A model generated the notes under the pieces. It made no database searches, was not told where the DNA came from, and saw only the letters and a list, made by a program, of their open reading frames with translations. Source: Planctomycetaceae bacterium (GTDB taxonomy: Bacteria > Planctomycetota > SZUA-567). Taken from it: a stretch of DNA of 38,518 nucleotides. This document shows positions 8,096 through 12,061 of this stretch, piece by piece. Both the position numbers and the translations under genes were made by a program. The stretch spans positions 1 through 38,518 of the forward strand of contig JAJQBO010000259.1 in assembly GCA_021203245.1 (NCBI GenBank), read 5' to 3'. Each line of letters starts with the position of its first letter. Within the stretch, counting starts at the first letter, position 1.

Positions 8096-8124
8096 TTGAC
8101 AGGATGGATCTTTTTCTCCATGAT
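8096..8124 (+). promoter_or_regulatory. Candidate sigma-70 promoter of abfD
   Basis: A perfect TTGACA (8096-8101) and CATGAT (8119-8124) are separated by 17 bases. A TACAAT at 8126-8131 is an alternative -10 but lies too far from the -35. Predicted leader length is about 55 bases. Confidence 0.55.
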
Positions 8125-8187: not shown

Positions 8188-9630
8188 ATGATGACCGGCG
8201 AACAGTACGTCGACAGCATCAAAAAGATCAACATGGAAATTTACATGTTCGGCGAGAAGATTCCATCCTCCGCCGACAACCCGATTCTGCGCCCGTCGCT
8301 GAATTCGGTCAAGGCGACCTATGATCTCGCCCAGCAGCCCGAGTACGAGGACCTGATGACCGCGACCTCGCACCTCACCGGCAAAAAGATCAACCGCTTC
8401 TGCCATATCCACCAGTCCACCGACGACCTGATCAAGAAGGTCAAGATGCAGCGTCTCTGCGGCCAGAAGACGGCTTCCTGCTTCCAGCGCTGCGTCGGCA
8501 TGGACGCCTTCAACGCCATCTGGTCCACCACCTTCGAATGCGACCAGAAGCACGGCACCAAATACCACGAACGCTTCAAGGACTTCATGCTGAAGGTCCA
8601 GGAAAACGACTGGGTCGTCGACGGCGCCATGACCGACCCCAAGGGCGACCGCGGCCTCTCCCCCTCGCAGCAGGCCGACCCCGACCTCTACCTCCACGTC
8701 GTTGAACGCCGCCCCGACGGCGTCGTCGTCCGTGGCGCAAAGGCGCACCAGACCGGCATCGTCAACTCGCACGAAGTCATCGTCATGCCTACCATCGCCA
8801 TGAAGCCGGAAGACAAGGACTACGCTATCGCCTTCTCCGTGCCGCTGGACACCCCCGGCCTGTTCATGATCATCGGCCGCCAGTCCTGTGACACCCGCAA
8901 GCTCGAAGGCACCACCATGGACGTCGGCAACTGCGAGTTCGGCGGCATGGAAGCCCTTACCGTCTTCGACAACGTCTTCGTCCCGAACGACCGCATTTTC
9001 CTGGACGGCGAGACCGACTACTCCGGCATGATGGTCGAACGCTTCGCCGGCTACCACCGCCAGTCCTACGGCGGCTGCAAGGTCGGCGTCGGCGACGTCC
9101 TCATCGGCGCGGCCGCACTCGCCGCCGACATGAACGGCGCGCAGAAGGCGTCGCACGTCAAGGACAAGCTGATCGAGATGACCCACCTGAACGAAACGCT
9201 CTACTCCTGCGGCATCGCCTGCTCCTGCGAAGGCGCGAAGACGACGTCCGGCAACTACCTCATCAACCTGCTCCTCGCCAACGTCTGCAAGCAGAACATC
9301 ACCCGCTTCCCCTACGAAATCACCCGCCTCGCGGAAGACATCGCCGGCGGCCTGATGGTCACGGCCCCGTCCGAAAAGGACTTCCGCCACCCGAAGCTGG
9401 GTCCGGTCATCGAAAAGTACCTGAAGGGCGTGGCCTCCGTCTCCACCGAGGACCGTCTGAAAATCATGCGCCTTATCGAGAACCTCACCCTCGGCACCGC
9501 CGCCGTCGGCTACCGCACCGAGTCGATGCACGGCGCCGGCTCGCCCCAGGCGCAGCGCATCATGATCGCGCGCCAGGGCAACATCGAGGCGAAGAAGGCC
9601 CTGGCCAAGAACATCGCCAAGATCAAGTAA
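8188..9630 (+). CDS. abfD: 4-hydroxybutyryl-CoA dehydratase
   Basis: A 480-residue [4Fe-4S]/FAD radical enzyme that dehydrates 4-hydroxybutyryl-CoA to crotonyl-CoA, as in 4-aminobutyrate and succinate fermentation. The cluster ligands known from the Clostridium aminobutyricum enzyme are present: Cys98 and Cys102 in ASCFQRCVGMDA, His290 and Cys297 in YHRQSYGGCKVG, with the conserved Tyr294. Other family blocks such as DGAMTDPKGDRGL, RGAKAHQTG and TESMHGAGSPQAQRI are intact. AAAGGA precedes the ATG at 8188; the next codon is also ATG and could serve. The gene is strongly biased to C/G-ending codons, suggesting high expression. A small Cys-rich gene follows 14 bases on. No CoA-transferase or 4-hydroxybutyrate dehydrogenase lies in the window. 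Confidence 0.97.
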   Translation: MMTGEQYVDSIKKINMEIYMFGEKIPSSADNPILRPSLNSVKATYDLAQQPEYEDLMTATSHLTGKKINRFCHIHQSTDDLIKKVKMQRLCGQKTASCFQRCVGMDAFNAIWSTTFECDQKHGTKYHERFKDFMLKVQENDWVVDGAMTDPKGDRGLSPSQQADPDLYLHVVERRPDGVVVRGAKAHQTGIVNSHEVIVMPTIAMKPEDKDYAIAFSVPLDTPGLFMIIGRQSCDTRKLEGTTMDVGNCEFGGMEALTVFDNVFVPNDRIFLDGETDYSGMMVERFAGYHRQSYGGCKVGVGDVLIGAAALAADMNGAQKASHVKDKLIEMTHLNETLYSCGIACSCEGAKTTSGNYLINLLLANVCKQNITRFPYEITRLAEDIAGGLMVTAPSEKDFRHPKLGPVIEKYLKGVASVSTEDRLKIMRLIENLTLGTAAVGYRTESMHGAGSPQAQRIMIARQGNIEAKKALAKNIAKIK

Positions 9631-9644
9631 AGGAAGTACCCATC

Positions 9645-9920
9645 ATGCGTGTGGCGGTGAAGTATTGCGGCGGCTGCAACTGTTCCTACGATCGGGTCGC
9701 CATGGTCCGCGAGTTGCAGCGGCAGTTCCCCGCCATCACCATAACCAATGCCGAAAGCCAGGACGGGATCCACGCGGATCTCGTCCTGGTCATTTGCGGC
9801 TGCTCCAGCGTCTGCGCCGCCCACGATCACCTCGAGGGCAGGCACGGCAAGATGATCACGGCGTGCGCGGGCGATTTTGAATCCGTGCGCGCGGTGGTTG
9901 AGGATTATCTGGCCGGGTAG
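9645..9920 (+). CDS. Small cysteine-rich protein linked to abfD
   Basis: A 91-residue protein beginning MRVAVKYCGGCNCSYDR, with a second Cys group in LVICGCSSVCAAHDH and a further Cys near ITACAGDF. Seven cysteines in paired or clustered positions suggest a metal centre or redox disulfide. The alternation of strand-like and helix-like segments suggests a small alpha/beta fold. Small proteins with an N-terminal CGGCN-YDR pattern occur in anaerobes, but I know of no assigned function. It starts 14 bases after abfD with AAAGGA before the ATG, so the two are almost certainly co-transcribed. A role in supplying electrons, FeS assembly or activation for the dehydratase is inference from this linkage only. 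Confidence 0.8.
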   Translation: MRVAVKYCGGCNCSYDRVAMVRELQRQFPAITITNAESQDGIHADLVLVICGCSSVCAAHDHLEGRHGKMITACAGDFESVRAVVEDYLAG

Positions 9921-10188: not shown

Positions 10189-10217
10189 AAAAAGCGCCCC
10201 GCAATGGAGCGCTTTTT
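10189..10217 (-). terminator. Terminator of the radical SAM gene
   Basis: A 9-bp stem AAAAAGCGC (10189-10197) pairs with GCGCTTTTT (10209-10217) around an 11-base loop. It lies about 30 bases beyond the radical SAM stop codon and works on the minus strand with its built-in T run. Confidence 0.75.
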
Positions 10218-10245: not shown

Positions 10246-11664
10246 TCAATCCCCGCCGCAGGCGGCACACTCCTGGCCCGACCCGGTGTTGACCGCCTGG
10301 GCCGCGCAGGAGCCGCATTTCCGGTCGCTCTCGGCCAGGACATGCGCGAAGGCGTTGGCGGTGGAACAGAGCATGTCGTAGTGGCCGGTGATAATCTCCT
10401 CCGCACCGTCGTGGGTGGGGATGAGGCCGTGCTTTTCGACAATGTCCCGAAGAATGTGCGGGTGATCGATCTGGGGGCAGGGACGGCGCAGATCTTTGTC
10501 GAACGGCGCCTTGCCGCGCATTTCCTTGAACGCTTCGCCGCGAATGCACTCGCCCAGGCTCTTTTCGTGGACCGAGTCCTTGGCGAAGTGGACAAACACG
10601 CACGGTTCGACATAGCCCCTGGCGGTGATATGGACATATTTCCTGCCCCAGGCGATGCAACCGTCAACCGAATCGCCGTCATTCCAGAAGTCGAAGACGA
10701 GAAGCGGTTTTTCCTTGCGGGCGGTGAGGATGCGCTCGCGCCGCTCAAGCCGCTGCTCTGCCGTCGGCACCAGGCTGAGGTCGGGTTCGCGACCGATGGG
10801 GATGTACTGGAACACCCAGCCGAAGGCCGCGCCGTGGCGGACCATGTCGTCCATAAACTCGGACGAGCAGGCTGTTTCGTGGTTTGCCTTGGTGTGGGTG
10901 AGGCTGTAGCCGAAGAGGACGCCGTTTTTGGTCAGGCGGTCCATCGTTTCGAGGATGCGCTTGTGCGCGTTTTCGCCGCGGCGGGCGTTGGTGAACTCTT
11001 CCGACCCTTCGATGGAGATGGCGGGGTAAATATTGCCGAGCTCGCCGAAGCGCTTCGCCATTTCGTCGTCGATACGCATGCCGTGCGTATAGACCATGAA
11101 GAACATGTCGTCGAATTCCTTGGCGATTGTCTCGAGGTGAGGCCAGTAGGTCGGTTCGCCGCCGGAGATGGCGATAAAGTAGATGCCCATTTCGTCACGG
11201 GCTTCGGTGAGGATTTCCCGCACCTTTTCGAGGGAGAGGGATTGTTCCTTCGGATATTTCCAGGCATAGCAGCCGGTGCAACGGAGATCGCAGGCCATGG
11301 ACGGCGACATCAGCAGGAAGAAGGGCGGGTATTCCCCGTACTTCGCCTTATAGGCATGGCGACGCTCTTCGCCCAGGTTAATTGTATTAAAGAACAAATT
11401 GAAGGCGAGTTTGCGCTGGGTCGCCTTGGAGAGGGTGGGGAATTTCCGCTTCGCCATTTCGAAGAACCCGCGCGCGGCATCGATCCTGCGTTCCAGCTCG
11501 GCTTCCGTGCCCTTGTGGTTGGCCGTCATCTGGCGGATGCCGTTGGCGGAAAATCTATCCATCATCGAGATCAGCAATTCCGGCGTGTGCTGAGAAAGGG
11601 CGGGCAAAAAGGTCGACATGCCTTTGCCCAACAGATAACTTTTCAGCTTGTTAATGCTAGCCAT
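10246..11664 (-). CDS. Radical SAM protein with SPASM-like C-terminus
   Basis: A 472-residue radical SAM enzyme. The [4Fe-4S]-binding CX3CX2C is Cys125, Cys129 and Cys132 in ACDLRCTGCYAW, followed by the SAM-contacting ISGGEPTYWP. About 115 residues precede the radical SAM core. Further cysteines occur in DGCIAWGRKY, YVEPCVF, GECIRG and RRPCPQID, consistent with auxiliary clusters of a SPASM/twitch-type region, and the extreme C-terminus has two CXXC pairs (CGSC and CAAC). The start at 11664 is chosen because GGAGGCG lies just upstream. It is alone on its strand, with its own terminator. No precursor peptide is visible next to it. The substrate is unknown; both peptide modification and activation of another enzyme are possible. 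Confidence 0.88.
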   Translation of the reverse strand: MASINKLKSYLLGKGMSTFLPALSQHTPELLISMMDRFSANGIRQMTANHKGTEAELERRIDAARGFFEMAKRKFPTLSKATQRKLAFNLFFNTINLGEERRHAYKAKYGEYPPFFLLMSPSMACDLRCTGCYAWKYPKEQSLSLEKVREILTEARDEMGIYFIAISGGEPTYWPHLETIAKEFDDMFFMVYTHGMRIDDEMAKRFGELGNIYPAISIEGSEEFTNARRGENAHKRILETMDRLTKNGVLFGYSLTHTKANHETACSSEFMDDMVRHGAAFGWVFQYIPIGREPDLSLVPTAEQRLERRERILTARKEKPLLVFDFWNDGDSVDGCIAWGRKYVHITARGYVEPCVFVHFAKDSVHEKSLGECIRGEAFKEMRGKAPFDKDLRRPCPQIDHPHILRDIVEKHGLIPTHDGAEEIITGHYDMLCSTANAFAHVLAESDRKCGSCAAQAVNTGSGQECAACGGD

Positions 11665-12061
11665 AAAACGCCTCCATAAAACGTGGCTCGGCCCCCCCAG
11701 GGACGTGCCCATCCACAGCAACTCATCTCTATTAGACGTCGCGGTTGTCACGAAGTCAAACAATTTCGCCCGTTTTTTACGTTACCCTGATGCCGCCGCG
11801 GCAGAGCCGTATCGCGGCGATGAATGCGGAATAAACCCGCAGGACAACGCAGAAATGCATGAGCTGTATGGATTTGCCTCCTCGTCACGACCAAGGCCCA
11901 TCAACCACCCTATTTTATGTATGTCCTGCCGGGAGAGGACACACCTCACCACATGCACGTATAAAACCATTTTTGGCGGGACAAACATCCTTGCATCCGT
12001 TAAGAAAAAGGGCCGCCACTGTTCCAATTGCCGTATTTCGTCGACGTTTGCCGGGCGGAAT

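Follow-up and report, generated by a model that had tools for sequence, protein, structure and literature searches.

The abfD locus

The window analyzed here, i.e. the whole stretch of 38,518 nucleotides (contig JAJQBO010000259.1 of a Planctomycetaceae bacterium), carries an abfD gene on its forward strand (8188-9630). It encodes a protein of 480 aa with Pfam HpaB_N and HpaB domains, whose best match in the PDB is the 4-hydroxybutyryl-CoA dehydratase of C. aminobutyricum (1u8v; 785 bits over residues 1-480, i.e. the full length). This dehydratase performs a chemically difficult radical elimination, both in anaerobes of gut and sediment that ferment GABA/succinate to butyrate and in archaea that fix CO2. 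AbfD requires an oxygen-sensitive [4Fe-4S] cluster that has an unusual His ligand and adjoins FAD. According to the alignment with 1u8v, the whole set of cluster ligands (three Cys and one His) is present in the window protein: Cys98 (codon 8479-8481) and Cys102 (8491-8493), spanning 8479-8493 on the forward strand, correspond to Cys99 and Cys103 of 1u8v, and His290 (9055-9057) and Cys297 (9076-9078), spanning 9055-9078 on the same strand, correspond to His292 and Cys299. The original prediction that this AbfD is a [4Fe-4S] enzyme agrees with the retention of these four residues, and the alignment assigns the window dehydratase to the 4HBD type. Upstream of abfD are found a sigma-70-like promoter match (8096-8124, forward strand, 10/12 positions, a match to the consensus only) and a dihydrolipoamide-dehydrogenase-like gene on the reverse strand.

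A small gene (9645-9920, forward strand) encoding a protein of 91 aa begins 14 bases after abfD, on the same strand but in a different reading frame. The RBS-like motif AAGGAAG (9630-9636, forward strand) begins on the final base of the abfD stop codon, and 8 nt separate it from the start codon (ATG) of the small gene. The protein contains exactly seven Cys (positions 8, 11, 13, 51, 53, 57 and 74), in and around the stretches YCGGCNCSYDR and CGCSSVCA. Both the distance to abfD and the number of Cys had been read correctly in the original prediction. The first Cys motif, C8-G-G-C11, is encoded at 9666-9677 (C8 codon 9666-9668, C11 codon 9675-9677) and the second, C53-x3-C57, at 9801-9815 (C53 codon 9801-9803, C57 codon 9813-9815), both on the forward strand. 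The downstream neighbor is a radical SAM/SPASM gene (10246-11763, reverse strand), convergent with the small gene. Between these two genes, a hairpin, AAAAAGCGC...GCGCTTTTT (10189-10217), was spotted by eye and was not flagged by the scan.

Conservation and predicted fold of the small protein

Comparison with 142 unique relatives indicates that the family conserves only four of the seven Cys (C8, C11, C53 and C57); a Cys at position 13 is unusual, and C51 is frequently missing. Among the unique members from the fetched loci, the CxxC motif is found in 142/142, an invariance partly imposed by the search pattern and the profile, and the CxxxC motif in 141/142. The AlphaFold2 model of the window protein is confident (pLDDT 91.8) and predicts the order strand-helix-strand-strand-strand-helix, with a short helix ahead of the third strand. 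In this model, CxxC lies in the loop past strand 1 and CxxxC in the loop past strand 3, and we infer that the four conserved Cys could form a single thiol or metal site. Searches in Pfam, NCBIfam and PDB sequences and with Foldseek assigned the protein to no family, and no fold match was found in the PDB at E <= 0.1. The small protein would belong to a previously unnamed family. A search of open-access papers turned up no description of this small gene of the operon, nor of any maturation or repair partner of AbfD, in line with the original prediction that none is established.

Co-occurrence of the small gene with abfD

The window genome and its relatives from the same genus, family and order make up a set of 17, in which abfD occurs in exactly six genomes and the small gene in those same six. 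The two genes are adjacent in five of them, and in the sixth (G004) only a gene encoding a NifU-domain (Nfu-like) protein intervenes. Furthermore, whole genomes were scanned with a pattern for which the small protein was the only seed, and this retrieved 80 loci from Bacillota, Planctomycetota, Synergistota, Spirochaetota, Deltaproteobacteria and Bacteroidota. Within the DNA fetched for each locus (about 8 kb at most on either side), an AbfD homologue is encoded in 70/80 loci. The remaining ten genomes have an AbfD match elsewhere, which in G107 is only a contig-edge fragment (51% identity).

Two further samples of genomes were chosen independently of the small-protein scan. In the sample from the class Clostridia (391 genomes), all 18 carriers of the small gene have an AbfD (18/18), for a total of 21 AbfD genomes (Fisher p 2.8e-28). 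The second sample consists of 395 genomes from the phylum of a deltaproteobacterial carrier. In this phylum, all 66 carriers encode an AbfD-like protein (66/66), with at least 53% identity in 64 of them (p about 2e-51), and 45 of the 71 small genes share the strand of abfD and are less than 400 bp away from it. In G237 and G264, both abfD and the small gene are present in two copies, and each abfD copy adjoins a small gene. These co-occurrence statistics lead us to reject chance adjacency. The distances between AbfDs correlate with those between small proteins (Mantel r 0.68, 0/2000 permutations), a correlation to which shared ancestry contributes. Moreover, the CCHC cluster ligands are kept in 94/94 full-length AbfDs paired with a small gene. 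Many of the sampled genomes are draft MAGs, and the hosts surveyed are bacteria. One small-protein match, in G348, was discarded as spurious (weak E, inside a frame of 1358 aa), and tblastn found no match to the small protein in plasmids.

The original prediction would have been refuted if no association with abfD had existed outside this genome; the association was found in 70/80 loci and in 18/18 and 66/66 carriers. Bacillota and the sampled Deltaproteobacteria-type phylum show it strongly, and it also occurs in genomes of Planctomycetota, Synergistota, Spirochaetota and Bacteroidota. Hence, a partnership between the small protein and AbfD is strongly supported by these genomic data.

The association is one-directional: the small gene goes with AbfD, not the converse. 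The small gene is absent from 23/87 second-phylum genomes that have an AbfD of at least 53% identity and from 3/21 Clostridia AbfD genomes, one of the three being a contig-edge fragment. When the ORFs flanking AbfDs that seemingly have no small gene were re-read, a very diverged small gene was found adjoining abfD in G791, G811 and G847, and none was found in the flanking ORFs of the others that were inspected. In the second phylum, 19/71 small genes have no abfD within 5 kb. Several of the 19 (L215-L218 and similar loci) lie beside acyl-CoA genes, encoding the large subunit of methylmalonyl-CoA mutase, the B12-binding subunit, 3-hydroxyacyl-CoA dehydrogenase and enoyl-CoA hydratase. Besides, heterologous production of the Metallosphaera sedula 4HBD yields an active enzyme (2.2 U/mg; table in PMC7078158), and therefore an accessory is not a universal requirement.

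G104, G500, G342, G336, G376 and many second-phylum genomes have more than one AbfD paralogue (37-60% identity); the cluster ligands of these paralogues are mostly kept and the small gene is not nearby. In the two paralogues examined at L122 and L132, a Tyr replaces the ligand His.

Gene neighborhood and fusions

Clustering of the genes from the 80 loci reveals a recurrent set: AbfD, an Nfu protein of about 95 aa, the small protein, AbfT (4-hydroxybutyrate CoA-transferase), a sigma-54 activator and a Fe-ADH resembling 4-hydroxybutyrate dehydrogenase. AbfD is the commonest partner of the small gene. A gene encoding a NifU domain (PF01106, Nfu) occurs in 49/80 loci and immediately precedes the small gene in 40. 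The pair formed by nfu and the small gene is kept with no abfD nearby in five loci (L041, L052, L066, L080 and L091). The window genome has its nfu and abfT on other contigs, and no nfu adjoins the window copy of the small gene; therefore, abfD and the small gene are the part of the set that stays together. A protein of about 456 aa, probably a membrane protein, also recurs in abf clusters (L093:11859-13229 and 23 other loci), often encoded just past abfT, and has no Pfam match at E <= 1e-5.

About 21 loci (Megasphaera, Lachnospiraceae) encode the small protein as a fusion with a MaoC hydratase domain, and L039 encodes it as a fusion with AbfT. The observed fusion partners are thus MaoC and AbfT, and none is an Fe-S protein. 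In several loci (L027, L038, L047, L054, L058, L071 and others), the gene encoding the MaoC fusion is followed by genes encoding an ACP-sized protein that has no Pfam match, a LuxE-like synthetase, a LuxC-like acyl reductase and an AMP-ligase. From its gene content, this LuxE/LuxC-like set appears to be an uncharacterised aldehyde/acyl operon linked to 4-hydroxybutyrate genes.

Putative role of the small protein

The small protein probably assists AbfD by loading, repairing or protecting its cofactor. The original prediction had proposed a cofactor-loading, redox or protective partner, a proposal that gains support from the multi-phylum association with AbfD and from the frequent NifU-domain neighbor. 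More precisely, the AbfD-linked distribution, the frequent Nfu neighbor and the conservation of a four-Cys protein lead us to favor a client-specific delivery or repair of Fe-S. That the small protein is a dedicated Fe-S delivery or repair accessory of AbfD, often paired with Nfu, has in our opinion about an even chance of being correct. According to this proposal, abfD and the small gene would form a two-gene unit that is presumably co-transcribed. The small protein would receive iron-sulfur, or keep the thiols of apo-AbfD reduced, and would then hand over to AbfD. It would thereby aid the insertion of the 3Cys/1His [4Fe-4S] cluster of AbfD, or its re-insertion after oxidative damage. In many lineages, the supplier would be the adjoining Nfu protein (NifU C-terminal domain), and in the window genome the nfu gene located on another contig could serve as such. 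We infer the physical interaction of the small protein with AbfD, its binding of metal, the direction of the transfer and its role in repair.

The main rival explanation, rather unlikely in our view, is that the small protein is a thiol-redox or protective partner, whose CxxC would be a dithiol of the SelW/thioredoxin type acting without any transfer of cluster. Such a dithiol would keep the Cys of AbfD reduced, clear persulfides or oxidised thiols, or rescue the enzyme after a misfired radical. This would fit the only weak family signals obtained for the N-terminal half, which are those of Rdx/SelWTH (PF10262, TIGR02174 and hhalign). However, these Rdx scores are under the curated cut-offs, a simple dithiol leaves unexplained the second pair, CxxxC, which is equally conserved, and the linkage with Nfu points to Fe-S. 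Ranked just after it, with a slightly lower probability, comes a general accessory of acyl-CoA enzymes (AbfD, MaoC hydratase, AbfT, methylmalonyl-CoA mutase), for instance a scaffold or a thiol/metal chaperone, for which AbfD would be merely the commonest neighbor. The MaoC and AbfT fusions argue for it, as do the second-phylum copies found near methylmalonyl-CoA mutase, enoyl-CoA hydratase or 3-hydroxyacyl-CoA dehydrogenase. A general role would not need the AbfD-like gene that all carriers have (18/18, 66/66 and 80/80), and the two adjacent small genes of the two genomes that have two AbfDs also argue against it.

Two other explanations appear very improbable. The small protein might be a regulator or metal sensor of the 4-hydroxybutyrate operon that controls expression and not the enzyme, since a sigma-54 activator gene is often found in the same clusters (39 loci). 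However, family profile searches detected no DNA-binding domain in the small protein, and the sigma-54 activator is missing from the window unit and from several other loci that associate abfD and the small gene. Just as improbable is a linkage due to chance or hitchhiking within the 4-hydroxybutyrate operon: its genes abfT and 4hbD are frequent neighbors too, but AbfD is the commonest partner in the 80 loci, the pair persists where other genes have moved, and the p-values of co-occurrence (2.8e-28 and 2e-51) speak against it.

Returning to Fe-S delivery or repair, we consider it possible, though somewhat short of an even chance, that the small family is a client-specific Fe-S loader or repair factor constituting, with a dedicated Nfu, the first known maturation system of 4-hydroxybutyryl-CoA dehydratase in anaerobic bacteria. 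A helper linked to AbfD across several phyla, often with its own Nfu, makes the insertion and repair of a Cys3His cluster directly testable. Furthermore, the small protein would be a practical co-expression factor in pathway engineering.

Comparison with known systems

The N-terminal part of the small protein (residues 2-41) shows a weak likeness to the Rdx/SelW-SelT-SelH family (PF10262, E 0.0028; TIGR02174, E 0.0049), with scores of 18.3 bits against a curated cut-off of 22.6 in Pfam and of 17.1 against 34.2 in NCBIfam. Comparison of the Rdx profile with that of the small protein by hhalign gave 88% over 44 columns. As in Rdx, an N-terminal strand (2-7) is followed by CxxC (C8-G-G-C11) and then by a helix, whereas the C-terminal half, which includes CxxxC, shows no similarity to Rdx. 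The xGCxxxCA loop past a strand resembles the DGCPxxCA of the DGC domain (PF08859; hhalign, 17 columns at 39%). However, the small protein is shorter and has CGGC in place of CSG; furthermore, the window protein does not match the DGC profile, and only 3/69 members match it (best E 0.034, below the curated cut-off). Since these profile similarities are partial and sub-threshold, membership in Rdx and in DGC was rejected.

The small protein may also resemble the thioredoxin-like [2Fe-2S] ferredoxins, proteins of about 100 aa with four Cys, the last two spaced as CxxxC and the first pair widely spaced. The likeness would lie in the size, the four Cys and CxxxC; the first pair of the small protein differs in being CxxC, its predicted strand order would differ as well, and no Pfam match to these ferredoxins was found. 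As for Nfu proteins, they deliver Fe-S clusters to client proteins. The small protein itself has no NifU C-terminal domain (PF01106). The job proposed for it, delivery to a client, is the one that Nfu performs in client-specific maturation, and the small protein would be an extra factor, linked to AbfD.
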